A DNA stretch of 64,000 nt from Branchiostoma floridae (Eukaryota > Chordata > Leptocardii > Amphioxiformes > Branchiostomatidae): positions 34,111,272-34,175,271 of the forward strand of contig NC_049981.1 in the NCBI RefSeq assembly GCF_000003815.2, read 5' to 3'. Position 1 is the stretch's first letter, and each line of letters starts with the position of its first letter. A program made the translations under genes and the position numbers. The notes under the pieces are model-generated. The model searched no databases. It saw only the letters and a list, made by a program, of their open reading frames with translations, and was not told the origin of the DNA. Below are positions 6,699-60,517 of this stretch, piece after piece.

Positions 6699-7974
6699 TT
6701 ATAAGGCAGTTTCTTGCCGGCTCCGTCTGCGCATGTACCTGAGCAGGCTGGTGCGCTTCCTGGATGTGGTCATGCTGATTTTCCTCCTGCGGCTGCTGGC
6801 GCGGGACGGCAGGTTTTTCCGCACGTCTGAGCGGAACAGGCCGTAGATGATGGGGTTGACGCAGCTGTTGAAGTAGGCCACCCAGTGCGCCACGGGGTAC
6901 ACGTAGTAGAACAGCGTCGTCTCCGCGCCTTCCGAAAGCGAACCGAAGTCGTCCAACATCCAGCTGACGTATAGTGGTAGCCATGACAACGCAAACATCG
7001 CCACCACAGTTACCAACATTTTCGTCACACGAATCCTTCGTTTCGGCACCTGCCCCATGACGCGAGACTGGCTGGCGTCCTGGCCCATGACGCGAGACTG
7101 GCTGGCGTCCTGGCCCATGACGGGGGACTGGCTGGAATCCTGACCTGTGACCGCGGACCGGTTGCGGCCCTGCCGCATGAAGCGATGGTGGTTGGTGTGC
7201 TGCCGTATGGCCCGTGGTTGGGTGGTGTTCTGATCCGTGACACGTGGTGAACCATGGCCCCCATGTGTCACCCGGGACTGCCCGGGGTCCTGACCCATGA
7301 CCTGTGGCTGGTTGGAGCTCTGATCTATGACCCGGGGTTGGCTGATGTCATGACTTATAACCTGGGTATGATTTGTATTCTGACCCATGATCTGGGGCTG
7401 ATTATGGTCCTGACCTATGACCTGGGACAGATTATGGTCTTGGCCTATGACCTGGGACAGATTATGGTCTTGGCCTATGACCTGGGACAGATTATGATCT
7501 TGGCCTATGACCTGGGACAGATTATGGTCTTGGCCTATGACCTGGGACAGATTATGGTCTTGGCCTATGACCTGGGACAGATTATGATCTTGGCCTATGA
7601 CCCGTGGCTGGTTTGTGCCCTGACGTATGACGCGATGGCTGGGTTCCATGGTTGTGCTGACCGGGAGTGACGACCTATACCATATGCTGACGCCGATTCG
7701 GCAGTAAATGCAGGTGACTGCCACGAGTGGCCCACAGTAGACGAACACGAACAGGGTTAGTGTGTAGGCATGTCGGTACTCCACAGCGGGCCAGTTCTCA
7801 TGGCAGTACGTGGCTGTCTCCCCGTCCCGGTACACGACGTCGTACTTCTGCGTCTCCAGCACGAAGGGCTGCGGCAGCATGATCAGCGCCGCGCCGCCCC
7901 AGATCCCGGCTAGAGCCTTCCTCACCGTGCTTCCCGACATGCGCAGCTCCGCAGGGTACAGGACCACGTAGTAT
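6699..7974 (-). CDS. Receptor exon 3 (TM4 to C-terminus)
   Basis: The acceptor reads tttttgtgcag, then ATACTACGTGGTCCTG, completing the split Arg of the ERY motif left by exon 2. The exon encodes the end of TM3, TM4, TM5, the repeat-filled loop 3, TM6, TM7 and a basic tail (RRRKISMTTSRKRTS), and ends at a TAA at 6701-6699. No intron interrupts the last four helices. Confidence 0.92.
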
Positions 7975-10900
7975 CTGCACAAAAACAAACAAACAAATAA
8001 ACAAATAAACAAACACGTTAATGGAGTGTGCTTCCTGACATAGACAGCTCCGCGGGGTACAGGACCACGTAGTATCTGCACTAAAACAAACAAACAAACA
8101 AATAAACAAACATGTTAAGCTTCACAGAGCACAGAGCCACGCAGTATCTTCCCAAAAACAAACAAACAAACATGTTAAGCTTCACAGAGCACAGAGCCAC
8201 GTAGTATCTGCACAAAAACCGGAATCGCGTAGCGCAGCGGGACCGTGTTCGGCCCCGGCACTTAGGAAAGGCACTTTACACGACTTTCCTCACTTTTATC
8301 AGGTGAAAATGAGTACCTAGCTTCGGTTAGGGCCGTCCCTCGGATAGGACGTTAAATGGAGGTCCTGTGTCTGGGGAGAGCCATACCCCATGCACGTTAA
8401 AGAACCCACCACACTTGCAATGGTGCGATGTGAGTGGTTCAAAACCTACACTACCTTGGCCGCACCTGGGGCAATTACCTTCGTATTGAAGTCACCTGAG
8501 TGGCGCCGAGTGGCAGCTCGCTCCAGACCTTTGCGATTTAGCCCCGCCCGCCAAATGTAAGCTCCTCGCAATTCAGCTAATTCGGCCAGGGGGCTGCAAA
8601 GAGTGGCCCACCCCAATAACATAACATATAACAATTACAAAAACACGCAAACAAGCAAAAAAAACAACAGTTATGTGGAGTGCGCTTCCCGACATGCGCA
8701 GCTCCGTATGGTAAAGAACCACGTAGTATCTGCAGAAAAATAAACAAACAAATAAACAAACAAACACGTTAAGCGGAGTGTGTCTCCCGACATAGGCAGC
8801 TCCTCGGGGTACAGAATCACGTATGCCAACAACAAGCAAGCAAACGAACGAACGAACGATATGTATGTTTAGGGGTATACTTACCGTTCCACTGCGACGA
8901 ACGATATGTCTGTTTAGGGTTAGACGATATGTATGTTTAGGATTATACTTATCGTTCCACTGCGACGAACGATATGTATGTTCAGGGGTATCCTTACCGT
9001 TCCACTGCGATGAACGAACGATATGTATGTTTAGGGGTATACTTACCGTTCCACTGCGATGACGGACAGCGTGTAGACGGAGGCTGCCACAGACACACCT
9101 TGAATCGTCACGTTTAGCTTGCACATCACATCTCCGAACTGATAATCTGAGCAGGAACAACGAAAATAATAAAATGCGTCAATAATACCAAGGATAAAAG
9201 CTCCTTGATAATACATTCCTTTCTTTATAAATGCACAGTTTTAGTGCACGACATTGTGACTTTTGTTCAAAATTAAGTTTTCCTAACTATGACACTCTAT
9301 TCCAACAATTAACTTCTAGGAATGGAAGTTTCGCTGTTCCTCCGGAAAGGAGGGTCACCACCAGATGGAGTCTCTTTGTTGCGTCCGAATACAGTTTGCC
9401 AGGATACCTGATGCCTACTCCTTCTTCACTGTCCAGGAAGGCTTCGGCGAGATAGCTGTGAATATGATGCTGAAGAGTGTCGGCGCCAGGACACACCCTT
9501 GTTTGACTCCATTGGTCACTGGGAAAGCTGAGGACGTTTCCCCGTTGTCCTGAACATGGGCTGTCATATCATTATGGAACTGGCGTACCATGGAGATGAA
9601 GTGTTCTGGACATTCGAACTTAGCCGTGATTCTTCATAGCCCATCTCTGCTGACCGTATCGATCGCCTCCGTAAGTAGATGAACGTGACATAGAGATTTC
9701 TGTGTGACCTTGACATTTTTCTTGCAGTTGCCTTGCTGCAAAGGTCATATCCACTGTGCCTACCAGCACGGCAGCCAGAAATTTTCCCGGCATGACTAGC
9801 GGTCTCTTTCTTCTTGTAGGGCAGTGAAGACTAATGGAAATCTGTATTGGCGATAATGTAAAGTAGTCAAGTTCAGGGTGTCATAACCTCATCCGTGAAC
9901 ATTCCAGGTCATAAGAACTCACCCCACACAGCAGCCCGCTATCTCAAGTGTCCAACAGTCTGGTTTATAAAAACTGCGACCAGTTGAAGTCATCGTAGCC
10001 TTCAAATGTACCGTCATCTTGGATTTTCATGACGTCATTTTATGGACTGATCACATCAAATTAGGGGTCAGCACAGGCCTAAAAAATGGACCAAAACCTT
10101 GTTTTTTTTGGCCTAATCTGAACGTCTGCACCCTAATCTCACCAATATGAAATTTCTCTTACATTTTCCTCCTACAAGTCGAAAATAGGCTAAAATACTG
10201 TATGGACTCATTTTGGGCCTTCTGCGGCTGCGTCAATTAGGGTCATTGCCCTTGTAGAGGTGTATGATTGGGGCGTCTTTGGAGTCATGGGGAATGGCAC
10301 ATTTCTCCCATATAGACTGGAAGATGTCGGTTAATTTCTGAGTTAGCACTTGGCCTCCAGACTTATATACCTCAGTTGGTATGGTTTCCGGACCAGCTGC
10401 TTTCCCGCTGCTGGTCACCTGACTGATGGTCCTCTGGGTCTCGCAGACGGAGGGTAGTGCATTCAACAAATTGTTGACTGGGATCTGTGGCAGGCGTTCG
10501 ATGGCTTCGCTGTTGATGGTGGACGGACGGTTCAGGACAGCTTCAAAGTGTTTTGCCCATTGCCCCAGGATCTTGGCTCGGTGCGTGATGAGTGTTGTCC
10601 CATCAGCACTGATATGATATGCGGCGAGGATGAGTGAGTGAGTGAGAGTGAGAGCACTGATAGGAGGAGCGCTGGAACACTGGGGTCAGTAGAGGGCTCT
10701 GACTGATTCATAGAAGCTCTTCGAGTCCTTCTTGTCTACAAATGCTTCATTTCATCAGCCTTCATGCTGAGCCATTCGTTGTGCCTTCCTGAGTCGACAT
10801 TGAATTTTCCGCCACATGGTTATAGAGGCTGTTGTCTTAGCAGTAGATACAGGGTCATTTGTAGCCCGTTTGCGAAGGCGGTGCTCTTCGGCCAGGAGAG

Positions 10901-13900: not shown

Positions 13901-16900
13901 TGGCGATAGCTTTCCGCTAGTGGAGTACAAGCTACAGATGGCTAGAGGTGTACAAGCTACAGATCGTTAGTGGAGTACAAGCTACAGATGGCTTGTGGAC
14001 TTCAGGCTACAGATGGCTAGTGGAGTGTAAGCTACAGATAGCTAGTGGAGTGTAAGCTACAGATGGCTAGTGGACTGTAAGCTACAGATGGCTAGTGGAG
14101 TACAAGCTACAGATGGCTAGTGGAGTACAAGCTACAGATGGCTAGTGGAGTACAAGCTACAGATGGCTAGTTGAGTGTAAGCTACAGATGGCTAGTGGAG
14201 TACAAGCTACAGATGGCTAGTGGAGTACAAGCTACAGATGGCTAGTGGAGTGGATGCCACAGATCGCATTGCGTACTGGTATTGATTTTCCATTCCAGGT
14301 CATTCTAGGCACGATGAAGAAGAGTGATGAAGCGTCCGGAGAAATCTGCGTTTCTTCGTCAGTTGTGGAGTTTGATTTGTCTTTAAACGTAACTCTGTCC
14401 GGAGATATAACAAGCTAACCAGCCGAATCTTTGTAACTAAGTTCGACAAAGTTCAACAAAGACCTGTCTGACCGAAACCATCTTGACAAAATAAAGACAT
14501 CTTGACCGGAGTCAAGAAATTTCTGCCAAATCCGCAGACGGATGCGATTTCGGACATTATTACCGCTATTTGGCAGGATAAACACCTTCATGGACCTAGT
14601 GACAACAACCTGTCCAAAAGCACGAGCACGAATCTTATCACAGCTGTCTAACTGTCTAGGCGTATCCGTGAAACACTTAATAAAAGTGTCACGTCAACAT
14701 GTCGAAATTCTTTCTCGAAACTAAAAGGAGTGAAGATGTTTTGTTGGAGGAAGGTCCTCTCCCCACAAATCCTTCCACTTCAACCTCCTGACATGTTGAT
14801 GGCTGCTCTCAGCTGGAAGCGAAGGGCTGAAGGACGCATCACTGAACAAATGTAATGCTGCTGTTACATTCCAAAAAATATATCATTGTGGATATAACTT
14901 CAAAGACTCGGCGTAGAGCCACTTATATTACATGGTCGGGTTATGCGTCCGCAGCGGCGCTAGCAGCCGGACTTATAAACGTTTCCCCTGACATTGGCAT
15001 TGCATATGTATCTGTATCTGTATCTATATAGCCGGTATAGCCGCCCTTTGGCGTAACACACCAGCTTCGCAGGCACGCGGCGCGGCAACAGTTGGTTCTG
15101 TATCTGTATCTATATAGCCGGTATAAGTACATATGTACAGTATGAAATATAATGGACTGCCGATAGGCGGAACTGGAGAAGGCTTGCCTGCGCTGCAGCC
15201 GAACGATGATGATGGACTGCGCACAATCCTCGACAGACCAAGCTCTATTTGCCACTACCATGTCATCTACTTTTCTTATCTGCTTGTTTTATAGGCTATT
15301 TCGTTCATGCCTGAACCGATTTCCTCACCTAAGATTGACTTTTTAAAAGTTTTTGATGTGTTGACAAAAGCGAAACAAATGTTGATAAGGATGCGAAGAT
15401 ATCGCGCCTTGCTGATGTTTTGCACATTTACAAAAGCCTTTCCTCTACGTGAACATCATACAAAATTAAAGCAGCACTGCAACATGTACAAGGTCTGTTG
15501 CATTTTCGGTCATGTAAATCCCCAAAATTGCATGCGCGGCTTTGCTGATCGTCAATGAATGATAAATGACTAAAAGTGGACTAGTTCCGCACAGAGGGTG
15601 CCAGACACTTCCCCATCTAGCTAAACAAGCTTTGCGAACGGCTGATAACACGTCAGCCGCGCCAATCAGTTGGGATGCGCAGACTGCTTCAGACTGCCGT
15701 GAAAGCCGACCTCAGGCGGAAACCAGTAAAAGATAGATGAAAAATGGCCAGGCTTTTCCTATCATGAACAACCCTGCAGCCTCCGTACAGGATTATCTAA
15801 AGCTTACTTAAACACGGATGAAACATAGCAAGGATTTGATATCCGCTAACAAGCCTCCAGTTTGATTCCATATCAAAAATGTAATGTCTTTCAACCAAAC
15901 ACGGGGCCGTAAATGTTTCCACTGTTTTCTGTAAAAATGGAGTCATCAAAAAGGCCTTATCATTCCCCAGCAGTGCGGCTGCGCAGTAGAGGCTGCTGCT
16001 AAGTGGTAGATCATAGGTACTGCAATTCAGCAGACAGCAATTACAATTGATTTTTCTACAAAATCGTATCAAAATCATATAATAGCTTTCTGATATATAT
16101 CAGTACCCCGTACATTTCACGTACCAGTGGGAATGGTGATCGCCTGTTGATCATTCAAAATATGCCTCACTAGTGTAATATGCATGGGACCTGCCCCACA
16201 AAATGTGCCCCACTGGTGTAATGTGCATGGGACCTGCCCCACAAAATGTGCCTCACTGGTGTAATGTGCATGGGACCTGCCCCACAAAATGTGCCTCACA
16301 AGTGTAATGTGCATGGGACCTGCCCCACAAAATGTGCCCCACTGGTGTAATGTGCATGGGACCTGCCCCACAAAATGTGCCCCACTGGTGTAATGTGCAT
16401 GGGACCTGCCCCACAAAATGTGCCTCACAGGTGTAATGTGCATGGGACCTGCCCCACAAAATGTGCCCCAATGGTGTAATGTGCATGGGACCTGCCCCAC
16501 AAAATGACGTACAGAATGTGTTCCGTCAGTGTGAGTTGCATGTGACTTACCGTACAGAATGTGTTCCACCAGTGTGGGGTGCGTGCGACTTACCGTACAG
16601 AATGTGTTCCACCAGTGTGAGATACATGTGACTTACCATGTGGGGTGAGATGCATGTGACTTACCTTGTGGGGTGGGGTGCGTGTGACTTACCGTACAGA
16701 ATGTGTTCCACCACTGTGGGGTGCGTGTGACTTACCGTACAGAATGTGTTCCACCAGTGTGGGGTGCATGTAACTTACCATGTGGGGTGGGGTGCATGTG
16801 ACTTACCGTACAGAATGTGTTCCACCAGTGTGGGGTGCATGTGACTTACCGTACAGAATGTGTTCCACCAGTGTGGGGTGCATGTAACTTACCATGTGGG

Positions 16901-17228
16901 GTGGGGTGCATGTGACTTACCGTACAGAATGTGTTCCACCAGTGTGGGGTGCATGTGACTTACCGTACAGAATGTGTTCCACCAGTGTGAAGGGTATACA
17001 GAAGACTGCCACCAGGAGGTCTGCCACGGCCAGGTTGAGGATGAAGTAGTTGGTGGCTGTGTGGAGGCGCGGAGTGGTGATAATGACCCAACACACCACG
17101 GCGTTTCCCACCACGTTCAGCGAGAAGACCAGGCAGTAGCCGAGGATGTAGAGAGCCATGACGACTGGCCCGTGCATGTAGAACGGCATGACGGGGACAT
17201 CCGGGGTTGTACTATTGGTGAGATTCAT
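6699..17228 (-). CDS. Neuropeptide FF receptor-like class A GPCR (three exons, complete)
   Basis: Predicted rhodopsin-class neuropeptide receptor, spliced from 17228-16964, 9146-9047 and 7974-6699; the phases agree (1, then 2) and the protein is about 546 residues. All seven helices are visible: TM1 with GNAVVCWVI, TM2 with NLAVADLLVAVFCIPFTLVE, TM3 with the disulphide Cys and an ERY motif in place of DRY, TM4, loop 2 with CHENWP, TM5 with YCRIG, TM6 with FALSWLP, TM7 with NPIIY. The loop-2, TM6 and TM7 signatures (YPVAHWVAYFNSCVNPIIYG) are those of NPFF/RFamide-type receptors, known to couple to G proteins at the plasma membrane; ligand and coupling are inferred. N-terminal NLTNST gives likely N-glycosylation sites. 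Odd: loop 3 is about 200 residues of decapeptide repeats, and all three exon junctions sit in tandem duplications. An orexin or QRFP-type receptor is the alternative. Confidence 0.92.
7045..7650 (-). repeat. In-frame 30-bp repeat encoding loop 3 of the receptor
   Basis: About 20 decapeptides of the form (R/Q)VxGQDxxxS/P lie between TM5 and TM6. Six or so central copies are nearly identical (QVIGQDHNLS); the flanking copies diverge, for example RVIDQSSNQP, RVTDQNTTQP and RVMGQDASQS. The frame is open throughout, so length change occurs in 10-residue steps. The array starts after the SLPVSTTME stretch and stops just before the basic RRIRVTKM entry to TM6. Confidence 0.95.
7975..8822 (-). repeat. 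Tandem copies of the exon 3 acceptor junction
   Basis: On the minus strand the block (TTTG)n-tttttgtgcag plus about 45 bases of exon 3 is repeated upstream of the real junction at 7974. Copies have boundaries at about 8075 (intact gtgcag), 8147 (gggaag), 8207 (gtgcag) and 8729 (ctgcag), and a degraded fifth lies at about 8780-8823. A SINE splits the array between the third and fourth extra copies. Splicing to 8075 would run into a TAA after 18-19 codons. Confidence 0.9.
8216..8640 (+). mobile_element. tRNA-derived SINE
   Basis: The head contains an A-box-like TAGCGCAGCGG and a B-box-like gtGTTCGGcccc, followed by gaaaggcactttacacgact, a segment shared with the copy at 63.1 kb, then a body with gttaaatggaggtcctgtgt and cacgttaaagaacccacc. 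The 3' limit is uncertain. It lies inside the acceptor-junction array of the receptor. Confidence 0.75.
8862..9060 (-). repeat. Tandem copies of the exon 2 donor junction
   Basis: Units of about 45-68 bp on the minus strand each contain the exon end tcgcagtggaacg plus a donor. Besides the real donor (GTAAGT, 9046-9041) there are GTAAGG at 8997, a destroyed ATAAGT at 8952 and an intact GTAAGT at 8884. The intronic part carries atacccctaaacatacatat and a GTTC-rich tail. Confidence 0.92.
9047..9146 (-). CDS. Receptor exon 2 (TM3)
   Basis: A 100-base exon bounded by tcctgctcag and GTAAGT. It reads D-YQFGDVMCKLNVTIQGVS through AVE, then the first two bases of Arg. It contains the conserved TM3 Cys and the TM3 face. 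It is too short to appear as a clear open frame alone; it was found from the phase-1 end of exon 1 and the phase-2 start of exon 3. Confidence 0.92.
9285..11000 (-). mobile_element. LINE (reverse-transcriptase fragments), minus strand
   Basis: Minus-strand frames between 10990 and 10230 encode the region upstream of and into the reverse transcriptase (SSGKAAGPETIPTEVYKSGG, then KDAPIIHLYKGNDPN). From about 9590 to 9285 the order resumes with a VTNGVKQGCVLAPTLFSI block. The intervening RT part, including the FVDL-type segment, is missing and replaced by unrelated DNA at about 9683-10215. Frameshifts and stops make it inactive. It resembles the widespread LINE family often annotated as craniofacial development protein 2-like. 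Confidence 0.85.
11001..11334. other. Unassigned, probably the LINE upstream region
   Basis: The sequence continues the composition of the adjacent LINE but I see no recognisable motif. Confidence 0.3.
11335..11425. repeat. Short 11-bp minisatellite
   Basis: About seven copies of acctacacccc in an otherwise unremarkable stretch. Confidence 0.9.
11426..12740. other. Non-genic receptor intron with a diverged ~200-bp duplication
   Basis: There is a (CTCAC)n tract near 11945-11973. Two diverged copies of a segment lie around 12355-12440 and 12570-12650, both with atatg-atataa, ttcttttt and a G-rich end. The first contains ttaaccctattcagacggg, a mutated form of the piggyBac-type MITE end, so this may be a decayed relative. 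Confidence 0.45.
12746..12937 (+). mobile_element. Penelope-like element remnant (C-terminal end)
   Basis: A 63-codon frame ends with RCFKRGVKEAIYERIHQLSL, NHKGGLR and MWDSVLK. This resembles the end of GIY-YIG-bearing Penelope-like proteins, where an (R/K)GVKEAI...PSLNRDGG...WD pattern is usual. The upstream endonuclease and reverse transcriptase are not visible, so it is a truncated remnant. Confidence 0.6.
13395..13905 (+). mobile_element. LINE reverse-transcriptase core, plus strand, frameshifted
   Basis: Consecutive plus-strand frames read FVDLKKAFDSVWREGLYYKL, LLFNLFINDLP-like (as LLSNLFINDLPQYLL) and INCLSWADDLTLISSSKHG. These are RT motifs A, B and C in order, the last with ADD in place of the usual FADD. 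At least two frameshifts separate them. The fragment ends where a 25-bp minisatellite begins. Confidence 0.85.
13915..14262. repeat. Minisatellite, 25-bp unit, about 14 copies
   Basis: Unit gctagtggagtacaagctac plus agatg, with variants (gtgtaagc, cttcaggc). It begins directly at the end of the LINE fragment. Confidence 0.95.
14263..15000. other. Non-genic receptor intron
   Basis: No exon or recognisable element was seen. Confidence 0.4.
15001..15135. repeat. Dispersed gtatctgta / ggcgtaacacaccagcttc module
   Basis: Two (gtatct)n-atatagccggtata blocks flank gccctttggcgtaacacacc-agcttc. The same module, inverted and tandemly repeated, makes up 34078-34400, so this is a dispersed family. Confidence 0.7.
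15136..16135. other. Non-genic receptor intron
   Basis: About 1 kb without splice-bounded coding sequence or a recognised repeat. Confidence 0.4.
16136..16980 (-). repeat. 43-bp minisatellite of the receptor exon 1 donor junction
   Basis: The 43-bp unit, read on the minus strand, is ctggtggaacacattctgta then cG and GTAAGTcacatgcacccc: the last coding bases of exon 1, the donor and the first intron bases. GTAAGT occurs 12 times between 16963 and 16545. Some units are shortened to about 28 bp, keeping GTAAGT. From about 16500 down to 16140 a second block of 43-bp units is a diverged version in which the donor is lost (ggggcaggtcccatgc). Confidence 0.95.
16964..17228 (-). CDS. Receptor exon 1 (N-terminus, TM1, TM2)
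   Basis: It starts at ATG (MNLTNSTTPDV) and ends in ...FTLVEHILY plus the first base of the next codon, followed by GTAAGT, phase 1. Reading past the donor gives a stop within about 16 codons, inside the second repeat unit. The start is chosen because it places a short glycosylatable tail before TM1. Confidence 0.92.
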
Positions 17229-28500: not shown

Positions 28501-31500
28501 GGGGCAGGGTCTATTTTTTTTTTTTTTCATTCTGTTTCTTTAGCCAGGGTAGCCCAACTCAGTATGGATATATAAGGTACTCTACTAAATTAGAATGTTT
28601 CTTCCAAATGTTACTTTGTAAAAATAATTATGAAATAAACTTGTGAAGATTTTAATTTCTTTAATTTTTATTTTCATTCATTCATTTTTATTTACTTTTG
28701 TTTTTATTCTTGTTGATACTGTGACACTCAGTTAAAGACACAAATTGTCTTTAACTGAGCCTTTTTGCCATAGTAATTACGTCAACATTGTAATTTTCTG
28801 GATTTTTAATTATATAGATAGTATAGCCTTTATAACATAATATAATATTATATCATAATATAATATTCAATGCCATGGATTAAAGTCCGGACTCATTAGG
28901 TCCGGACCTGAAACTAAACCTCCGGATTCGAATCCGGACTTGAACCTAAACGTGGGTTCAGGTACGCATCCCTACGTCTATACAATGTATGTAGTAATGG
29001 CTGCAGAACTAATCCACGATTAGAAAAATCAAGCAACACTCCGGCTGATTTGAACACTCATGAATAAAGGTTCAAAAAAGCATTTTGTACAGGATCAATG
29101 CTTTTTCCGTTATAATCTATGCAAATACTTAATTCCAGGTTAAAAACATTGATTAATAGGATTATACTTTGTATGGCTTAAGACGTTTGCTTGTGCTCCC
29201 AACCTTTCATAGTGGTGCTCCTAAATTTTTGCTAGGAGCGCCATGCTCCTAGGTCAAAAAGTTAAGTGTCTTGCATTTTAGGCTATTGAGAAGGCTTATT
29301 AATGTTATTTTATCACTTTTTAGGGCCATATCTACAATGATCGTAGCAGTCACTTAACTTCTCTTCTGCAGTTTGAAGTAAAAATATTTCGGGTCAAACT
29401 CAAAGCTTCAAAGACAACTAAAAACTCATAAACAACAAACTTTACTCAGCTCAACAGTACTTATAAATATCGTCCGGGTTGCCATCCAAAGTTGAAGCGC
29501 TTACTTATAGCGCTAGTATCTTCACTGCGCTGTTAGCCGCCGTGTGAGTTTTGTTGACGGTCTGATATCGCTGCCTCGCCGTTAGAGTTAGACGATATTC
29601 CAACGGACATGTTTCAAGAAAAATACCTGGCAAAAACTGCTGTTCTGCGACAGATTCTATTCTTTAAAACATGTGGGACTCGGTGTTACAGTCTAATAAA
29701 TATTTTGTAGAAGCACCGCTGTGGGTAAGAAAGTCCAAGGAATGTATTAACGTAGCATGAAGTTAGATGTACGGCACATGACTGTTTGAAACTTTAATCA
29801 ACAGCCGCGTTTGATTGATAGCTGGTGGTCCTTTGATGAAGTCGGCAAAACACTGCCGACACTGCCCTGGCGATTTGTGGGTGGCCGCGAAAATAACGCC
29901 CGGGTTTTACATACAAACTTATAATCTGGTTTTGAATCTTACGTTGCCGAAACAAAGAGCTTCAAATTTAGACAACAGGAATTTTGGGAACGCGACCCGC
30001 TCTTGTTCCAGAATTATGTCGGAAAGAATTGATGCTATTTCCCGCGCTGAAATAAAAATTACGCAACTACTAGTAACAGCCTAAGTTGGTCAACACCGAT
30101 CCCCAAATAAGGACATTCCCAGGGAACTGGCTGTTCCGTAGAGGGATCCCACCCCACTGATCACTCGCAGCAAGGCCCACTCGCTACCCTTTTTACATTT
30201 ATTTTTGGCGCGAACGCAGGGCGGCACACGCAAAATTTAGAACAGGAAATTTGGGAACCCGACCCGCTCTCGCTCTAGAAATGTGTCAGAAATAATTGAT
30301 TGTATTTTCCGCACTGAAAAAGAAATGACGCAACTACTAGTAAGAGCCTTTGTGTATATCAACCCCGCTGCCCATATAAGGAGATTCGCGGGAAATCTTA
30401 TACATATTGGCTGTTCCGGGGAGGGATCCCACCCCACTGATAACGTGCGGCAAGGCCCTCTCGCCACTCTGTTTGCATTTCCGCCGGGAACGCAAGGGCG
30501 GTCCTGGGTGGGAGGGGCTGCGAGACAGCGGTGCGGCGGGCCGGTGCTATAAAACGCCTCCCTTCGAGTTGATAACTTCCTGAAACAGCAAAGGCGCGTG
30601 ATATCAGCAGATGTCAGCAGATGTCATCAGCCTGATGATATTGTAATGATGATTTAAGACATGACACTGTTGTTGATGTTGCCCCGATGACACTGTTGTT
30701 GATGTTGCCCCGATGACACTGTTGTTGATGTTGCCCCGATGACACTGTGGTTGATGTTGCCCCAATGACACTGTTGTTGATGTTGCCCCCGATGACACTG
30801 TGGTTGATGATGTTGCCCCGATGACACTGTGGTTGATGTTGCCCCAATGACACTGTTGTTGATGTTGCCCCGATGACACTGTTGTTGATGTTGCCCCGAT
30901 GACACTGTTGTTGATGTTGCCCCGATGACACTGTTGTTGATGTTGCCCCGATGACACTGTTGTTGATGTTGCCCCGATGACACTGTTGTTGATGTTGCCC
31001 CGATGACACTGTTGTTGATGTTGCCCCGATGACACTGTTGTTGATGTTGCCCCGATGACACTGTTGTTGATGTTGCCCCGATGACACTGTTGTTGATGTT
31101 GCCCCCCTTTCCCAGGTACTCGCATCATCTATGACCGCGCCTTCCTGATGCAGATGCGAAATTCTCCCCATGCCAAAACTCCGCCCCGCAACCTTCCCAA
31201 GATTCCTGGTGTAACAAGCCCTGCCGACGCCGAACAGACTGCGAAGCGAAACCAAGTTAATGGAGAAAACAACCATGACAAGCCTCACGGTGAGTAAACA
31301 TCAACATCAACATAAACATAAACATAAACATAGATATGACAAGCCTCACGGTGAGTAAACATAAACATAAACATAAGCATAAACATAAACATAGATATGA
31401 CAAGCCTCACGGTGAGTAAACATAAACATAAACATAAACATAAACATAGATATGACAAGCCTCACGGTGTGTAAACAAAAACAGAAACAGAAACAGAAAC

Positions 31501-31654
31501 ATGACAGGCCTATGTGGTGAGTAACCAAAACATAAACATAAACGTAAACGTAGGAGTGAGCTGCTAAAGTGAGGATTTGTAATTTTCACTAATTTTTTAC
31601 TTGTTGACTTTTCCTTCAGATGCGGATGAACCCCAGTTTGAGATGGACATCTAG
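22754..31654 (+). CDS. EIF4EBP: eIF4E-binding protein (4E-BP), three exons, complete
   Basis: Translational repressor that binds cap-binding eIF4E in the cytoplasm and is released when TOR phosphorylates it. Exons 22754-22886, 31116-31289 and 31620-31654 join in phase 1 twice and give 113 residues, close to the usual length of about 100-120. Visible motifs: the repeated TTPGG phosphorylation sites ([15 protein letters not shown]), the eIF4E-binding motif YDRAFLM, RNSP and IPGVTSP sites, and the C-terminal FEMDI TOS motif that recruits TORC1. The RAIP motif of the vertebrate N-terminus is represented only by HEIP. The donor after exon 1 is weak (gttggt). The 8.2 kb first intron is full of transposons, and a tandem array of donor junctions follows exon 2. 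Confidence 0.97.
23301..23391. repeat. (TG)n-rich microsatellite, left of the foldback element
   Basis: An interrupted (TG)n run ends in gtgagtgttta, the same phrase found many times right of the element (25295 onward). It looks like one microsatellite split by the insertion. Confidence 0.85.
23424..23605. repeat. Array of GCACT...AGTGC short palindromes (left)
   Basis: Four to five imperfect palindromes of about 18-20 bp, such as gcactggaaaccgagtgc and gcacttgaaatcgagtgc, spaced about 40 bp apart. Confidence 0.8.
23845..24555 (+). mobile_element. LINE C-terminal fragment, plus strand, nested in the foldback element
   Basis: The plus strand reads [20 protein letters not shown] and LDQRICQL, then after about 100 unrelated bases VEDEVHF and, in another frame, [20 protein letters not shown]. 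The order matches the Cys/His end of the LINE at 2.8-3.3 kb. The 3' tail ends in gtgcaataaaggtcttcatt. Confidence 0.8.
24815..25270. repeat. Array of GCACT...AGTGC short palindromes (right)
   Basis: At least ten palindromes at intervals of roughly 35-45 bp, including gcactggaagccgagtgc, gcactggaattcctgtgc, gcactgggccccgagtgc and gcactgggcgcccagtgc. The arms are conserved while the central bases vary. An inner aacccgtgacttaggta copy of the element terminus occurs at about 24965. Confidence 0.85.
25304..25650. repeat. (TG)n microsatellite with gtgagtgtttatg phrases
   Basis: About 350 bases of interrupted TG repeats with recurrent gagtgttta phrases. The Cys/Val-rich open frames here are artefacts. 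Confidence 0.95.
25655..25830 (-). mobile_element. LINE C-terminal scrap
   Basis: The minus strand reads [20 protein letters not shown] followed by [20 protein letters not shown]. The YKNSFFP-TI-EWN-LP signature is typical of the extreme C-terminus of many LINE ORF2 proteins. The 3' side runs into the microsatellite. Confidence 0.8.
25831..26495. other. 4E-BP intron, nothing recognised
   Basis: Short open frames only; no element ends or exons were seen. Confidence 0.4.
26504..27441. mobile_element. Non-autonomous hAT-type element with 8-bp target duplication
   Basis: The termini TAGGGCTGGATACC and GGTATCCAGCCCTA are perfect inverted repeats, flanked on both sides by GTAATCAC (26496-26503 and 27442-27449). 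The subterminal regions are unusual: accggt-rich on the left, and on the right an inverted pair of caggttcaggtccgg-type repeats. The 938-bp interior has no transposase that I can recognise. An 8-bp duplication is the hallmark of the hAT superfamily. Confidence 0.85.
27450..28870. other. 4E-BP intron with a dispersed-repeat relic
   Basis: 27940-28150 shares phrases with the MITE at 49.07-49.55 kb (ggccgcgaccgcattcgaca, ctatttcttaat, aatccaagggacc), so a decayed relative lies here. 28350-28450 has four ggggtatgtttatt phrases. Nothing else was seen. Confidence 0.5.
28870..28975. mobile_element. Solitary end related to the hAT-type element
   Basis: gtccggacctgaaactaaac and the ending gggttcaggtacgcatccct resemble the right subterminal part of the 26504-27441 element. 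No matching left end was found. Confidence 0.5.
28976..29950. other. 4E-BP intron, nothing recognised
   Basis: No coding or repeat structure beyond a short gtgctccta...taggagcg inverted phrase near 29215-29255. Confidence 0.4.
29955..30490 (+). repeat. Two diverged copies of a ~240-bp unit
   Basis: 29960-30190 and 30236-30480 align along their length: ttgggaacgcgacccgctct / ttgggaacccgacccgctct, acgcaactactagtaa in both, and gagggatcccaccccactga in both, followed by gcaaggcc. The identity of the unit is unknown. It sits just upstream of a TATA-like sequence. Confidence 0.8.
30548..30554 (+). promoter_or_regulatory. Possible TATA box inside the 4E-BP intron
   Basis: TATAAAA in a GC-rich setting (ggcgggccggtgc before it, cgcctccc after), about 570 bases upstream of 4E-BP exon 2. 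It could drive an intronic start or belong to the duplicated unit; only the motif is seen. Confidence 0.25.
30660..31107. repeat. 26-bp minisatellite ending at the 4E-BP exon 2 acceptor
   Basis: About 17 copies of gatgacactgttgttgatgt plus tgcccc, with tggttgatg variants at 30745-30840. The last unit ends about 8 bases before the acceptor AG (ccccctttcccag, 31115), so the acceptor polypyrimidine tract is continuous with the array. No exon bases are included. Confidence 0.95.
31116..31289 (+). CDS. EIF4EBP: 4E-BP exon 2 (eIF4E-binding core)
   Basis: It follows tttcccag and starts by completing Gly, then [20 protein letters not shown]; it ends KPH plus one base before GTGAGT. It holds the eIF4E-binding helix and the proline-directed sites. 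Confidence 0.96.
31275..31555 (+). repeat. EIF4EBP: Tandem copies of the 4E-BP exon 2 donor junction
   Basis: The phrase atgacaagcctcacg plus GTGAGTaaacat, that is exon end plus donor, recurs with donors at 31290 (real), 31351, 31412, 31467 (GTGTGT) and 31517 (in a diverged atgtg context), spaced 50-61 bp and joined by (aaacat)n. Reading past the real donor gives GGT GAG TAA, an immediate stop. Confidence 0.94.
31620..31654 (+). CDS. EIF4EBP: 4E-BP exon 3 (TOS motif)
   Basis: After tttccttcag, it encodes [11 protein letters not shown] and a stop. FEMDI is the exact C-terminal TOR-signalling motif of animal 4E-BPs. Confidence 0.96.
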
Positions 31655-44983: not shown

Positions 44984-45040
44984 GAGGATCCATGCGGCAG
45001 CTCAGCAAGGAGGACAGCACACTCCAGATGCTTCAATCGC
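44984..45040 (+). CDS. Possible exon start running into a minisatellite
   Basis: After a strong acceptor the sequence reads (frame +2) GSMRQLSKEDSTLQMLQSQ, which looks like genuine protein, then enters the proline-rich array. This frame needs a phase-1 predecessor, so it does not follow the phase-2 end of the 36.2 kb exon; that phase would give a stop soon after. No donor GT is seen before the array. It may be an exon whose donor end is lost in the repeat, or a false exon. Confidence 0.35.
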
Positions 45041-45692
45041 AATCCCCACCGGCTGACTCTCCCGCCGTCCCGCCGGCTGACTCTCCCGCCGTCCCACCGG
45101 CTGACTCTCCCGCCGTCCCACTGCCGTCCCACCGTCTGACTCTCCCACCGTCCCACCGGCTGACTCTCCCGCCGTCCCACCGGCTGACTCTCCCGCCGTC
45201 CCACCGGCTGACTCTTCCGCCGTCCCACCGGCTGACTCTCCCGCCGTCCCGCTACCGTCCCACCGGCTGACTCTCCCGCCGTCCCCACCGGCTGACTCTT
45301 CCACCGTCCCGCTGCCGTCCCACCGGCTGACTCTCCCGCCGTCCCCACCGGCTGACTCTCCCGCCGTCCCGCTGCCGTCCCACCGGCTGGCTCTCCCGCC
45401 ACCCGCTGCCGTCCCACCGGCTGGCTCTCCCGCCGTCCCACCGGCTGACTCTCCCACCGTCCCGCTGCCGTCCCACCGGCTGGCTCTCCCGCCGTCCCAC
45501 CGGCTGACTCTCCCGCCACCCGCTGCCGTCCCACCGGCCGACTCTCCCGCCACCCGCTGCCGTCCCCACCGGCTGACTCTCCCACCGTCCCGCTGCCGTC
45601 CCACCGGCTGGCTCTCCCGCCGTCCCACCGGCTGACTCTCCCGCCACCCGCTGCCGTCCCACCGGCCGACTCTCCCGCCACCCGCTGCCGTC
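45036..45692. repeat. 24-bp-based minisatellite (ccaccggctgactctcccgccgtc)
   Basis: Units of about 24 bp, ccgtcccaccggctgactct plus cccg, with added cccgctgccgtcccaccggc modules that make a longer composite unit in the second half. It starts at the end of the possible exon above. All frames on both strands stay open because of the unit length. Confidence 0.95.
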
Positions 45693-46440: not shown

Positions 46441-46464
46441 TTCAGTAAGGGTTAGTGTTGGGGT

Positions 46465-46548
46465 TAAGGTTAGGGTTAGGGTTAGGGTTAGGGTTAGGGT
46501 TAGGGTTAGGGTTAGGGTTAGAGTTAGGGTTAGGGTTGGGGTTAGGTA
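46465..46548. repeat. Interstitial telomeric repeat (TTAGGG)n
   Basis: About 13 copies of ttaggg with rare variants (gagtta, ttgggg), flanked by unique DNA. Confidence 0.95.
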
Positions 46549-47875: not shown

Positions 47876-49025
47876 CAAAAGCGAGACATGTACATGTATC
47901 TCGTGGAGGTGCTGGACAGCTCAACCTTCAACAGGGTGGAGCTGGTGCACTGCTACAGGAAGGAAGGTTTGTTTGTTTGTTTGTTTGTATTATTGTATCT
48001 CGTGGAGGTTCTGGACAGCTCAACCTTCAACAGAGTGGAACTCGAGCACTGCTACAGGAAGGAAGGTTTGTTTGTTTGTTTGTTTGTTTGTTTTCTTGTA
48101 CATGTATCTCGTGGAGGTTCTGGACAGCTCAACCTTCAACAGGGTGGAACTGGAGCACTGCTACAGGAAGGAAGGTTTGTTTGTTTGTTTGTTTGTTTTC
48201 TTGTACATGTATCTCGTGGAGGTTCTGGACAGCTCAACCTTCAACAGGGTGGAACTGGAGCTCTGCTACAGGAATGAAGGTTTTTTTTTTGTATTGTAAT
48301 GTTGAGTTGTGGCTATCCTCAAACACAGGACTTACACTTGACGTCCCTCTCCCATTGCAAGTCACAAGCATTGTATGAAAAAACTGTGAAAAAAATAAAC
48401 CAGTAGATAAACCCGAAAGTTTCAATACTCACAGTATTTTTTTTATCTAAAAAAACTAAAAGCTAAAATTGCCCATACATCAGAACAACCTCCCTGATCA
48501 GAAGATGCATCGGGAACGGCGCCCATCTCCACTTCTAAGCCCTGGGCCCCTCATAGGTGCAAGCACTATAGCAGGGGGCTAGTCCACTGGTAGTGTAGTG
48601 TGTTTAGCTTCCATACTCTTTCTCTTAGTAGGGAAAGAAGCGAGAAAGAAGTATGTACCATTTTTAAGAGTCTTTGGTATGACCCGGCTACAGCATCCCG
48701 GCCTCCTTAGTGGTCGCCCATTTAAGTAAGTTGACTCGACTGCCCATCCGAGATCAAGGGAACAGGATGGTATCAAGGGAACAGGATGGTATCAAGGGAA
48801 CAGGATGGTATCAAGGGAACAGGACGGTATCAACGTGCTACGGCCATTATAAGCCACTATCTTTTAATGTAGCATTTGGTTTATTATTTTCCAGTGCCTA
48901 TGTGTGCCATTGCCTGGTACGACGAGCACGGCAAGTTTGTCATCGGCTACTCCGACGGGAAGGTGCGGATGTGTGTGAAGGACCCGTACGATCAGGACGC
49001 CATCAAGACTATCGAGGCACATGAG
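47876..49025 (+). CDS. WD40-repeat-like protein, two internal exons
   Basis: Exon 47876-47966 (after ggaatcccag) reads QKRDMYMYLVEVLDSSTFNR then VELVHCYRKE plus one base, phase 1; exon 48895-49025 (after ttattttccag) starts with two bases completing Val, then PMCAIAWYDEHGKFVIGYSD, GKVRMCVKDPYDQDAIKTIE and AHE, before GTGAGC. The phases match. The pattern of a short LxVxD strand, a CAIAWYDEHGKFVIGYSDG hairpin and an IEAHE ending is that of WD40 beta-propeller blades, which serve as protein-interaction scaffolds. I cannot name the family. The first exon and its donor are repeated three more times in the intron. The start and end of the gene are not seen; the 36.2 kb exon may be its first. Confidence 0.75.
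47886..48285 (+). repeat. Four tandem copies of most of the WD40 exon plus its donor
   Basis: Units of 99-109 bp each contain tatctcgtggaggt-ctggac through tgctacaggaaggaag, then a gtttgtttg donor and a (gttt)n tract. Donors lie at 47967, 48066, 48175 and 48280 (the last gttttt). Only the first copy has an acceptor in front. The donor-to-donor step between copies 1 and 2 is 99, a multiple of 3, and the frame is open across it. Confidence 0.93.
48286..48894 (+). other. Rest of the WD40 intron
   Basis: Contains four copies of a 19-bp unit (atcaagggaacaggatggt) at 48757-48832; otherwise nothing. Confidence 0.7.
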
Positions 49026-50331: not shown

Positions 50332-50333
50332 TA

Positions 50334-51223: not shown

Positions 51224-51225
51224 TA

Positions 51226-51880: not shown

Positions 51881-51881
51881 T

Positions 51882-54600: not shown

Positions 54601-54613
54601 GGACTGGGCTGAG

Positions 54614-55088
54614 AAACGGGTTAGGGAACGGGTTAGGGAACGGGTTAGGGAACGGGATAGGGAACGGGTTAGGGAACGGGTTAGGGAACGGGTTAGGGAA
54701 CGGGTTAGGGAACGGGTTAGGGAACGGGTTAGGGAACGGGTTAGGGAACGGGTTAGGGAACGGGTTAGGGAACGGGTTAGGGAACGGGTTAGGAAAAGGG
54801 GTTGGGGAACGGGTACGGGTTAGGGTACGGGTTAGGGTTAGGGTTAGGGAACGGGTACGGGTACGGGTACGGGTTAGGGAACGGGTTAGGGAACGGGTTA
54901 GGGAACGGGTTAGGGAACGGGTTAGGGAACGGGTTAGGGAACGGGTTAGGGAACGGGTTAGGGAACGGGTTAGGGAACGGGTTAGGGAACGGGTACGGGT
55001 ACGGGTTAGGGAACGGGTTAGGGAACGGGTTAGGGAACGGGTTAGGGAACGGGTTAGGGAACGGGTAGGGAACGGGTAGGAACGGTAG
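54614..55088. repeat. Telomere-like 12-bp array (ttagggaacggg)
   Basis: Nearly pure 12-bp units in which every second TTAGGG is replaced by aacggg; some ggtacgggtacggg variants. Runs into an N gap. Confidence 0.96.
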
Positions 55089-55345: not shown

Positions 55346-55715
55346 GGGTTAGGGAACGGGTTAGGGAACGGGTTGGGGAACGGGTTAGGGTACGGGTTAG
55401 GGATCGGGTTAGGGACCGGGTTAGGGCACGGGTTAGGGTTAGGGTTAGGGAACGGGTTAGGGTTAGGGTTAGGGTTAGGGTTAGGGTTAGGGTTAGGGTT
55501 AGGGTTAGGGTTAGGGTTAGGGTTAGGGTTAGGGTTAGGGTTAGGGAACGGGTTAGGGTTAGGGTTAGGGTTAGGGTTAGGGAACGGGTTAGGGAACGGG
55601 TTAGGGTTAGGGAACGGGTTAGGGAACGGGTTAGGGTTAGGGTTAGGGTTAGGGTTAGGGTTAGGGTTAGGGTTAGGGTTAGGGTTAGGGTTAGGGTTAG
55701 GGTTAGGGTTAGGGT
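55346..55715. repeat. Interstitial TTAGGG array mixed with aacggg units
   Basis: Starts as ttagggaacggg units and passes into long pure (ttaggg)n stretches (55435-55545, 55630-55712) in the same orientation. Confidence 0.96.
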
Positions 55716-55774
55716 AGTAGCCTTCCCTTTCCATAGTCGGTTAGGGTTAGCGTTAAGGTTAGCTTTTAGATATT

Positions 55775-55880
55775 TGAAGGGTTAGGGTTAGGGTTAGGGT
55801 TAGGGTTAGGGTTAGGGTTAGGGTTAGGGTCCTGGTCAAGGTCAAGGTCAGGGTCAGGGTCAGGGTCAGGGTCAGGGTTA
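55775..55880. repeat. Second short TTAGGG run passing into ggtcag repeats
   Basis: About eight ttaggg units, then (ggtcaa/ggtcag)n from 55832, separated from the main array by 60 unique bases. Confidence 0.93.
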
Positions 55881-56719
55881 GGGATAGGATTATGGGTTTG
55901 ATGCCAAAACAATTTCGCCTAGGGGTACCGTAGCTGTAACCCCGAGGGCGGCCAATCTTAGTCGAGCAGAAGGGCGATTCTTAAAGAAGTGTTTAGGGTC
56001 GCGTCTCCATGAAAACAGGTAAGACGGTCATCTCCAAGCAGATGTTGGGATGACATTGTCTACAAAAGACAGGCCAGTGAGTGCCTGGAGTCTTGGCCTG
56101 GTGCAAATTTTGTCAGTATACCCAAATTTTCTATTCAGAGTTGCAATAGAGGGTACAGTGAATGAACTGCAAAAATTTCAAGCCCACATCCTCATCTTAA
56201 CCCATATTGCACCTGGCGTTCTGTGTTGGGTTCGGCTCAGGNNNNNNNNNNNNNNNNNNNNNNNNNNNNNNNNNNNNNNNNNNNNNNNNNNNNNNNNNNN
56301 NNNNNNNNNNNNNNNNNNNNNNNNNNNNNNNNNNNNNNNNNGGTCAACATACAATCATTATGACGCTTAAAAACTTTCGATCAGGAAACAACACGAAACT
56401 GTTAAATGAAGAATGGGAATTAGATGGTAGTAAATCCGGTCTATCTGCAGGAGGAGTCCCGGGAGGGAAATGTGCTTGTGGGGCAGGCCACAGTTTCACC
56501 GTGTCCTACCACAAACCTCAACTTCACAACATGAAGATGGAAAAAATGTGCATTTCTCTGATTGGAATGAAAGATTTAACAAGGAAAAAGTGAAGACACA
56601 GGCTCCCAAACAATGAGTGGGAATAAAAAAAAACTTTTATTAAATTTAATTAAATACTGGAGCAGCTCTTGACTATGTCCACTTTATCATGTGACCTTCT
56701 CTTCTGAACTGCTACTGAC
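55881..56719. other. Intergenic with an assembly gap (56242-56341)
   Basis: Exactly 100 N mark a gap of unknown size. No exon is recognised on either side. Downstream exons of the COX18-like gene would be expected on the minus strand below 56720. Confidence 0.6.
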
Positions 56720-57469
56720 CTTGACATTGAACTTTGACCTCATCTGTTTCTCGGACCAGCCCCGCTGGTGTCCGGCGACGGAGACCTGCCGGCGTAACGC
56801 GGCGGCGAAGCGTGCCAGTTCGGGCTGCAGGCCCTCCACACGGGCGATCACGTGAGCCTGGTACACCGCCAACGGGAACGTCAGGCCCAGCCGCAGCGCG
56901 ACCGTTGTCATGACAATGGTTGCCCACCACGGCAGGCCGGTGTGGAGGTGCACATGTTCCAGCAGGGTCATGGCGAGCCGTACGGGCGGCGACTCCGGCC
57001 CGAACATGTCCACGTACCAACCTGACGGGGGGGTCGGAGCGGACGCTTCTGTCGACACGTGTCTCCTACAGACAAGACGGGACGTGTCCTCGGACATCGT
57101 GGAGGGGAGGGTTCTTAGGAGGACTGTTCTATCACTTGAGAAAATCCTGGATGATCTTGAGAACTGCTGAGGTCTCATGTTACAAAAGCTAAAGTTGATG
57201 AATCCTGTGGAGGCCTGTTCATGTCTCATGTTACAGCAGTGAAAGTTTGTGAGAGCTGTGGAGGACTGTTCATGTCTCTTGTTACAGCAGTGAAAGTTTG
57301 TGAGAGCTGTGGAGGACTGTTCATGTCTCATGTTACAGCAGTGAAAGTTTGTGGACGCCTGTTCATGTCTCTTGTTACAGCAGTGAAAGTTTGTGGACGC
57401 CTGTCTCCTGGGCAGGTAACAGGAAACTTCCTGCGATAACAAACGTGTCGGCATCCTCGGGAGAAACAT
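56720..57469 (-). CDS. COX18: COX18-like mitochondrial inner-membrane insertase, first exon
   Basis: Member of the YidC/Oxa1/Alb3 family; COX18 helps export the COX2 C-terminus across the mitochondrial inner membrane. The exon ends GWSEKQMRSKFNVK before donor GTCAGT (phase 0). The recognisable part, LLEHVHLHTGLPWWATIVMT and the following LRLGLTFPLAVYQAHVIARV-EGLQPELARF, is the first transmembrane segment and the conserved loop of COX18 proteins. Upstream is a basic, Ser/Arg-rich segment (MRPQQFSRSSRIFSS) suited to mitochondrial targeting, and before that five in-frame repeats. The start at 57469 (MFLPRMPTRLLSQEV) is the longest choice; an inner Met is possible. Later exons (four more membrane segments) are not found in the window, so the gene is incomplete or misassembled. 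OXA1L is less likely. Confidence 0.82.
57195..57412 (-). repeat. In-frame 42-48-bp repeat at the COX18-like N-terminus
   Basis: About five units encoding NFHCC-N(K/M)RHEQ followed by SSTAL, AS or similar. Unit lengths (42, 48) are multiples of 3, so the frame is kept. It is nearly perfect at DNA level, so recent. Confidence 0.88.
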
Positions 57470-58500: not shown

Positions 58501-58537
58501 GATTATACTGTAGGGGTTACTGTGAGGAATACTGTAC

Positions 58538-58633
58538 CTCCAGTTGAGCTGGGAGATGGGGTTGACTGTGGTCCAGTTTGCCTTCTGGCCGGTGTCTCGG
58601 GTAAAGTTTCCCGTCAGGGGTGGCAGGTTACTC
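58538..58633 (-). CDS. Sialyltransferase exon 5 (second half of motif L)
   Basis: After gtctccag it completes Arg, then SNLPPLTGNFTRDTGQKANW and TTVNPISQLNW, before GTACAG. Confidence 0.88.
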
Positions 58634-60517
58634 CTGGAGACGGAACAAACATAAAAAATAAACAAACAAACAAACCCAGACACCAAGGGGACAGGTTACT
58701 TCTGAGGCTAAACAAATACAAATTACATTGTGCATAGAATACAATAATCATTAATGTATTCAATACACAATGTAAGTCTAAGATAAAAACTGACCTGAAG
58801 ACGAAGTCTGCCCTGTCGATCTCCTGACCACACCCACTGCCGAGCAGCACGGCTCCGTTCCCCACCACGCTACAGCGCCGGTACGGCGTCGCGGGGAGGG
58901 GCGAGTCCTGCAGACAACAGGAAACAGTTTACACTAGCTGCGGCTAGTGGCAGTGACAGGCCATAGGGGCATGTCCAGGCATGACGCACCCGCTATGACA
59001 TACAAGTCGGGGGTAGGAGGAACCCCTTACATCCTAGGTAGGAAGACCTCCAAACAACAAACCTGCATCTGCTGGGGCCATTTTACACGTTGCATACAGT
59101 TGCCCCTGTAGGACATAGTGCTCCAGTGGACGAGAGGGTGAAGGAAGTGCACACTATTTCTTGGTAACACTTGAGTAAAATCCTCCCCTGTGACAAAGGC
59201 AGTTCATGAGGGTCCATCCCAAGACTTACCCTGGGTAGCGTGTTGTAGAAGCCACGGCTAGCCTGGAAAGTTTTTTCGTGCTGGATGTAGTAGCGGATCT
59301 TCTGCCCGACGCGAGTGTTGGTGCGGGTGAGGATAGCGTCGGCCTGGGTGTTGGTGCAGTTGTTGATTTCATCCCTACAGAAACAACAAGAGTTCCCAGA
59401 CCTCATACCTCTGTGAAATATTTTGATTATGCAACTGTGATGTACACTATCAACTTATAAAATCTCAGAAGCAAGAAATTTGCATTATTGACCACTTTGA
59501 TGAAGCATGGAACTTTCATGTTATTTCTGCTGATTTGGCCGTTATTTGTATAATCAGTAAATGTTCCCCTACCTCAAATAACATTCGTTGTGTTTTAAGT
59601 TTTATAAAAGATGCTGGAATTTTACTATCTATTATGCAAATTAAGTCCTAATTTCTGTAATTTGCATTGCGTTACCCTGTCACTTGATTTGTACCTCAGA
59701 ATTCACAGCCAATTCTTTTGCTACAACTTTACGACATGAAAACTTTACATGAGGTGTCGAGAGGCAGATCTGTTGTGTCGCCATGGTAACAGCAAGTCCT
59801 GCCCAAGGGTCCGGACATCAACGGGCGCTGTGGTTGGCTGCTGGGTGGTTACCGGGGAGACGAGCTCGGCAAGCAGCCGCGATTTGTTGAAGAGAATACA
59901 GGTGTCAGAATAGGGTTCCGCCTCTGCAGCTAGGAACAAACTGATAAACACACAAACAAGCGGCATTAGTTACTAGTTACAGTTAAGTACCACAGCAGTA
60001 GCACTGTAGTACCACAGCAGTACCACTGTAGTACCACTGCAGTAGCACTGTAGTACCACAGCAGTAGCACTGTAGTACCACAGCAGAAGTGCTGTAGTAC
60101 AAAAGCAGTTGTAGCACTGTAGTACCACAGCAGTAGCATAGCAACTTGAACTAGTACTAGTAATATATCAGTAGTACAGCAGTAATATGACAGTAATATA
60201 TCAGTAGTACAGCAGTAGCACAGCAGTAATATGACAGTAATATATCAGCAGTACAGCAGTACCACAGCAGTAATATGACAGTAATATATCAGCAGTACAG
60301 CAGTACCACAGCAGTAATATGACAGTAATATATCAGTAGCACAGCAGTACCACAGCAGTAATATGACAGTAATATAGCAGTAGCACAGCAGTAATACTAA
60401 CCTTGCCAGCATAGTTTGCAGTCCGGAGTGCCCCGGCCCCCCCACAGCGTGCATGTAGTACAGCAGTAGCACTCCAGTTGCCAGAACTGCGGCCAGAAGC
60501 CATTGTTTTACCCGCAT
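58538..60517 (-). CDS. Alpha-2,8-sialyltransferase-like (ST8Sia), five exons, 3' incomplete
   Basis: Golgi type II enzyme that transfers sialic acid from CMP-sialic acid to glycans. Exons 60517-60402, 59940-59749, 59374-59230, 58907-58795 and 58633-58538 join with matching phases (2, 2, 0, 2). It starts MRVKQWLLAAVLATGVLLLY, a short cytoplasmic tail and signal anchor; an in-frame TGA lies upstream of this ATG. The stem has N-glycosylation sites. Sialylmotif L is complete across exons 4-5: CSVVGNGAVLLGSGCGQEID, ADFVFR, SNLPPL, DTGQKANWTTVNP. The NLPPL...TVNP spacing points to the ST8Sia1/5/6 branch. Odd: RSN replaces the usual RCN. Motifs S, III and VS are not found; the frame leaves by a phase-2 donor (GTACAG) about 100 bases before an assembly gap. 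Confidence 0.9.
58634..58720 (-). repeat. Single duplicate of the exon 5 acceptor junction
   Basis: On the minus strand cctcag-aagtaacctgtcccctt at about 58701 resembles ctccag-gagtaacctgccacccct at the real junction (58633), 68 bases apart and joined by a (gttt)n tract. Only about 20 exon bases are shared. Confidence 0.65.
58795..58907 (-). CDS. Sialyltransferase exon 4 (first half of motif L)
   Basis: Bounded by gtctgcag and GTCAGT; reads DSPLPATPYRRCSVVGNGAV onward to DFVF plus two bases. Carries the motif-L Cys expected to form the disulphide to motif S. Confidence 0.92.
59230..59374 (-). CDS. Sialyltransferase exon 3 (stem to catalytic domain)
   Basis: Bounded by tttctgtag and GTAAGT; reads DEINNCTNTQADAILTRTNT and RVGQKIRYYIQHEKTFQASR then GFYNTLPR. 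The vG--i-Y pattern followed by f--LPR fits the region just before motif L in ST8Sia proteins. Confidence 0.88.
59749..59940 (-). CDS. Sialyltransferase exon 2 (stem region)
   Basis: After gtgtttatcag it reads SLFLAAEAEPYSDTCILFNK, then a Thr/Pro-rich stretch (SPVTTQQPTTAPVD) and HNRSASRHL, ending in two bases of Met before GTAAAG. Composition fits a flexible stem. Confidence 0.82.
59985..60400. repeat. Degenerate repeat following the exon 1 donor
   Basis: Two related unit types: gtagtaccacagcagtagca (59985-60135) and cagtaatatgacagtaatat with atcagcagtacagcagtacc (60150-60395). It begins one or two bases after the GTTAGT donor of exon 1 and shares tactgctgt phrases with the membrane-anchor coding sequence, but no exon end is copied. 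Confidence 0.85.
60402..60517 (-). CDS. Sialyltransferase exon 1 (membrane anchor)
   Basis: MRVKQWLLAAVLATGVLLLY continues to GLQTMLA plus two bases before GTTAGT. Short basic tail then one hydrophobic helix. Confidence 0.85.

Follow-up and report, generated by a model that had tools for sequence, protein, structure and literature searches.

Minisatellites spanning splice junctions in a repeat-dense stretch of the Branchiostoma floridae genome occur at about the frequency of the local repeat background

Results

The window analysed here, a 64-kb stretch of the Branchiostoma floridae genome lying 72-136 kb from the end of contig C3, holds six gene models, built by joining exons in frame, in which we placed 23 splice junctions. 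The models comprise a rhodopsin-family GPCR (hereafter the receptor; 546 aa after in-frame joining), 4E-BP, a sialyltransferase, a COX18-like gene, a gene that we refer to as gene C, and a WD40-labelled gene, two doubtful exon 3 junctions of which (both scoring 21/40 on the scale defined below) were kept out of the 23. Pfam searches with the joined exons identified the receptor (7tm_1, 3e-41), 4E-BP (eIF_4EBP, 9e-45, running to the end of the profile) and the sialyltransferase (Glyco_transf_29, 2e-22). For the COX18-like model, Pfam returned 60KD_IMP only, at an E value of 0.048 that falls under that profile's cut-off. Gene C gave no Pfam match that counts, and neither did Pfam return a match behind the WD40 label, for which the best hit in PDB sequences had E = 0.056. 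Two tandem arrays were observed at the ends of these models: a 51-bp array at 57172-57404 (reverse strand), with ATGAGA in its unit, covers the COX18-like gene around its putative start codon, and a 24-bp array at 44984-45692 (forward strand) begins within the last exon of gene C, its unit carrying the stop codon TGA of that gene.

Tandem repeats are abundant across the window, where a TRF mask (period at least 10) gave 48 merged arrays occupying 14,722 of the 64,000 bases. The tandem share was 20.3%, as compared with 7.2% and 2.5% in random interior samples of 17 kb and 62 kb (the 7.2% coming mostly from one piece of ten, L048, at 57%) and with 1.6-1.9% at kinase loci, while arrays numbered 0.75 per kb here and 0.22 per kb in randomly drawn 4-kb stretches. 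Elsewhere on C3, six neighbouring pieces ranged from 0 to 44% tandem and carried 0.74 arrays per kb, similar to the window. Pieces L001-L008, which were chosen by donor pattern, were left out of these group means and of the motif-cluster counts given below. By sequence class, tandem positions made up 10.9% of coding sequence in the window (4.2% without the receptor loop repeat), 19.0% of introns and 21.2% of all noncoding sequence. Subtelomeric location was rejected as a cause, as ten samples taken about 105 kb from other contig ends were only 3.0% tandem, no more than the interior. The number of arrays in those samples was intermediate, at 0.45 per kb (interior 0.22-0.23; C3 neighbours 0.74), so that something local to the C3 tip may still be at work. 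Overall, the stretch appears to belong to a part of the C3 tip that is rich in minisatellites. Telomere-like arrays of GGGTTA and of AACGGGTTAGGG were also observed, at 46448-46546, 54615-55085 and 55346-55898, about 80-90 kb from the C3 end.

Each junction was given a copy score, defined as the best ungapped match of its 20 + 20 bases within 1 kb, with a threshold of at least 32/40. An earlier note on this DNA had listed six junctions as copied in tandem. Five of these stood, with scores of 34-40 of 40, and the identical five were recovered using 24-, 30- and 50-base words; the sixth, the sialyltransferase exon 5 acceptor, did not (21/40). At all five the authentic junction (a putative one in the WD40-labelled gene) adjoins the copies in register, forming what are known as mirages, and the splice signals AG/GT are retained in many copies; receptor exon 1, for example, has 11 GGTAAGT beyond the authentic one. 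The note was also right that unit sizes differ, being 43/28 bp at the receptor exon 1 donor, 45-68 bp at the exon 2 donor, 60-101 bp at the exon 3 acceptor, 49-61 bp at the 4E-BP exon 2 donor and 99-109 bp in the WD40-labelled gene. The junctions and their arrays are as follows.

6700-7974 (low end approximate), reverse strand: receptor exon 3, the last coding exon; acceptor before base 7974
7927-8219, reverse strand: exon 3 acceptor mirage with a (GTTT)n tract; copies at -101, -173 and -233, best 39/40
8856-9062, reverse strand: exon 2 donor mirage; three extra copies at +49, +94 and +162, best 37/40
9047-9146, reverse strand: receptor exon 2 (TM3 region); donor after base 9047
16156-16506, reverse strand: older block of the exon 1 donor 43-bp unit; GC at the donor GT position in 8/8 copies
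16508-16989, reverse strand: exon 1 donor mirage of 43- and 28-bp units; the authentic GGTAAGT and 11 more
16964-17228, reverse strand: receptor exon 1; donor after base 16964, from in-frame joining and 7tm_1
31116-31289, forward strand: 4E-BP exon 2; donor after base 31289, with eIF_4EBP over the joined exons
31275-31502, forward strand: 4E-BP exon 2 donor mirage; 49-61-bp unit with an (AAACAT)n tail, best copy 34/40
47889-48297, forward strand: exon-plus-donor mirage of the WD40-labelled gene; four copies spaced 99-109 bp apart, best 40/40
58633-58700, reverse strand: sialyltransferase exon 5 acceptor and its claimed weak copy (21/40); common piece AGTAACCTG

The receptor exon 1 donor has a perfect copy (40/40) 43 bp away, and its 43-bp array continues with equal period into the older block, whose unit is identical to the young one at 30 of 43 positions, where the best of 2000 shuffled units reached 23. 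One of the exon 2 copies, that at +94, has lost its GT, and the exon 3 acceptor has a further, dispersed copy at -755 (near 8729). The last coding exon also contains an in-frame coding minisatellite (7040-7631, reverse strand) with a 30-bp unit, encoding the ten-residue repeat VIGQDHNLSQ, which, judged by eye, sits in the third intracellular loop of the receptor.

In 4E-BP the extra donors lie at +61, +122 and +177, with a degenerate one at +227 just past the array. Upstream of the same exon, a 26-bp array (30661-31105, forward strand) stops 11 bases short of the acceptor, which it does not include. For the WD40-labelled gene, the phase of the mirage exon agrees with that of the exon at 48895-49025, and it is this agreement in frame and phase that points to the exon and to its putative authentic copy. 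Junctions without a copy score 19-21, with one at 26 (the sialyltransferase exon 1 donor). Because the 21/40 of the sialyltransferase exon 5 acceptor, its best match within 1 kb and below threshold, equals this level, the copy claimed there was not confirmed. Intron 1 of the same gene holds an array of 11/22/44-bp units (59986-60397, reverse strand) that has GTGCTACTGCTGTACTAC (18 bases) in common with exon 1 at 60472; this array is either exon-derived without a junction or a chance likeness in simple sequence.

The earlier note had gone further, offering as one reading that junctions are preferred seeds for tandem duplication. Measured against the repeats around them, the junctions gave no such signal. 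Centres of 40 bases with a copy within 1 kb make up 21.8% of the window (20.5% without microsatellite-like sequence), and 5/23 junctions (22%) fall in tandem sequence against 4.74 expected under circular shift (P = 0.50), or against 5.3 expected with the TRF mask (P = 0.59). Split by type, 4/13 donors (expected 3.0) and 1/10 acceptors (expected 2.3) in the window are copied. Counted by array, five hold a junction where 3.8 would be expected (P = 0.30), or 2.6 when only arrays of at most 600 bp are considered (P = 0.11). None of these comparisons, whether of junctions or of arrays, therefore reveals a significant excess: the copies themselves are beyond chance, and their position is not.

Loci elsewhere in the genome, an assembly of 513 Mb, were chosen by kinase match rather than by repeats (42 loci, 12 of them with partial domains). 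In the 17 loci where profile hits end inside the domain, 37 junctions were placed using profile and splice-site scores, and two of the 37 had a copy, compared with 19 of 295 intronic control points. The 37 include three poor-scoring acceptors (L068, L069 and L070), the dropping of which gives 2/34, and the acceptor of L063, whose copy at 30/40, just below threshold, was scored as a miss. Both matches come from one exon of a single locus (L038, on C19), to which 11 of the 19 control matches likewise belong.

1182-1550 and 1819-2398 of locus L038: mirages of the kinase exon, at both its acceptor (147-bp unit) and its donor

A globin search returned nine matches with 18 junctions, two of them with a copy as compared with 11/90 control points; re-placing three donors (L093, L095 and L097) by the FD|V rule had raised this count from 1/18 to 2/18, the controls being those from before re-placing. 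One of these loci (L101) has a 158-bp acceptor unit, present in 3.2 copies within the piece, which fits the published BflGb6 mirage (150-160 bp), and another (L097) has a 157-bp donor copy (34/40), which fits that of BflGb9 (157 bp). Together these two are a positive control. Over all junctions outside the window, a small sample, 4/55 (7.3%) had a copy against 30/385 control points (7.8%), so that junction-spanning copies show no significant excess over matched non-junction positions either in the window or at the 55 junctions elsewhere. Window and kinases combined give 7/60 against 6.74 expected, with a Poisson interval of 2.8-14.4, which leaves room for junctions to be favoured by as much as about twofold.

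The ends of the arrays also bear on the idea that junctions, or the simple tracts adjoining them (polypyrimidine, GTTT and AAACAT runs), start duplications more often than other intron sequence. In the window, exon-facing array ends at most 80 nt from a junction numbered five on the exon side against 1.4 expected (P = 0.013) and four on the intron side against 1.35 (P = 0.050), or nine against 2.8 with both sides summed (P = 0.003, post hoc), and a simple-sequence tract lies directly at the splice site in 3/5 units. In introns, flanks 200 and 300 nt wide likewise consisted of tandem sequence to about 35%, as compared with 21% (P = 0.050 and 0.047, post hoc), with P = 0.32, 0.13, 0.11 and 0.44 for widths of 50, 100, 500 and 1000 nt. 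The pile-up of ends could reflect seeding at exon edges; however, it is also expected if arrays grow within introns until selection on coding sequence halts them. In the small kinase sample, moreover, there was one such end on the exon side and none on the intron side, against 0.72 expected for each.

Tests based on splice-site motifs were similarly divided. Clusters of GGTRAGT were tandem in 4/11 cases in the window compared with 0/10 for the reversed motif, but in 2/50 compared with 1/54 outside it, where acceptor-like motifs gave 1/75 and, reversed, 2/72. Genome-wide, pairs of GGTAAGT 16-45 bases apart outnumbered reversed pairs (2296 vs 1286; these are raw pairs, of which one long array yields dozens), whereas pairs at one fixed spacing were fewer than reversed ones (24 vs 58). 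The donor-motif tests thus give conflicting directions. Together with the finding that junctions are not significantly overrepresented in tandem sequence, either across the window or at the 55 elsewhere, these results lead us to regard a junction-seeded origin as unlikely. The same low probability attaches to a related form of it, in which duplications in minisatellite-dense regions are started or held at exon edges, leaving array ends within about 80 nt on both sides, perhaps seeded by simple tracts at the splice site.

To assess the effect of the extra copies on the products, each was joined in turn in the receptor and 4E-BP models. All 22 shorten the reading frame: 18 in the receptor (11, 3 and 4 at exons 1, 2 and 3), giving 103-194 of 546 residues, and 4 in 4E-BP, giving 104 of 113. 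The +94 copy at receptor exon 2, counted among these 22, has no GT and could not act as an ordinary donor. Of all the sites joined in this way, the exon-proximal one alone yields full-length protein. This site probably wins in splicing, as is reported for other mirages, and the truncating copies fit a duplication that is silent so long as it does.

Such an outcome agrees with one alternative offered by the earlier note, that the copies are tolerated, and goes against the other, that they are selected as decoys. Decoy sites might adjust expression by drawing splicing towards unproductive messages, an idea with which the shortening of the frame by every copy tested, and the splice signal mostly kept in young copies, would be in keeping. 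Retention of GT in young copies is not informative, however, because these copies are near-identical throughout, and in the diverged 43-bp copies the GT position reads GC in eight out of eight. Splicing is also reported to be undisturbed at the published mirages described in the relevant passages of PMC3087553 and PMC3902484. We therefore consider selection for decoys very improbable.

It is equally doubtful that the arrays were produced in assembly, by repeats being collapsed, expanded or wrongly placed. The window does contain 570 N, some of them in or next to arrays, and one haplotype of the BflGb6 mirage was misassembled in the draft genome, according to the globin account in PMC3087553. 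Yet the units differ among themselves, an old diverged block is present, and the same assembly contains two published globin mirages with fitting unit lengths, making an artefact a very remote prospect.

Discussion

These analyses suggest that the mirages in the window are probably neutral by-products of a minisatellite-dense stretch, with no mechanism aimed at splice sites. Short tandem duplications would arise throughout such a stretch, and some would happen to cover a splice junction. When a donor or acceptor is duplicated in this way, one intact exon-proximal site would remain, so that all further copies would land in the intron, where they would cost little while splicing keeps to that site; the array could thereafter expand, homogenise and decay as any minisatellite does. 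What is directly established is that the copies exist and in which register, how common such copies are in the background, and that those tested would truncate the protein if used; we infer that splicing uses the exon-proximal site and that the copies are neutral.

Lancelet mirages are so dense in this one region (5/23 junctions) that their number can be set against a background, and the local repeat background alone can account for them. The chance rate measured here sets the bar for any later claim of a junction preference. Receptor exon 1 offers a test bed for how splicing could ignore 11 further donor copies directly downstream, and the window mirages as a group offer one for the published idea that mirages can give rise to introns. 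Were duplication seeded at exon edges after all, mirages would be a steady supply of spare splice sites and new introns.

Among the known amphioxus mirages are those of Adh3, where Canestro et al. (2002, NAR 30:2871) are said to have found minisatellites over exon-intron boundaries, together with somatic instability. The earlier note had named these minisatellites at amphioxus Adh as a precedent, and later papers citing the work bear it out and add further loci. The arrays in the window resemble those of Adh3 in spanning exon-intron boundaries and differ from them in the genes affected, somatic instability being part of the Adh3 report. As related in the globin passages of PMC3087553, the term mirages was coined at Adh3, where units measure 10-72 bp; similar structures are cited there through titles on retinol dehydrogenase and a presenilin gene; and intron gain from mirages is proposed. 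The same passages describe acceptor copies at BflGb6 (150-160 bp) and donor copies at BflGb9 (157 bp), with RT-PCR and Adh3 data suggesting regular splicing despite the mirages. Tandem acceptor or donor copies are thus common to the globins and the window; the window differs in its shorter units and in the higher copy number at receptor exon 1. Furthermore, the globin mirages come with RT-PCR and haplotype data, whereas those of the window are known from sequence. In lancelet PGBD5, tandem repeats of 60 and 108 bp over splice sites are described in the corresponding passage of PMC3902484, which also cites troponin C mirages.

The mirages of the window thus belong with the known amphioxus mirages, in genes not named in the globin and PGBD5 passages. 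Among the literature matches listed, and judging by the listing, we found no genome-wide count of mirages, in a search outside which most subscription journals lie. As far as this literature goes, the estimate that mirage frequency equals the local repeat background is new. Where the PGBD5 and troponin C cases are described gene by gene in the passages concerned, the window brings three genes together, with the background rate measured alongside them.
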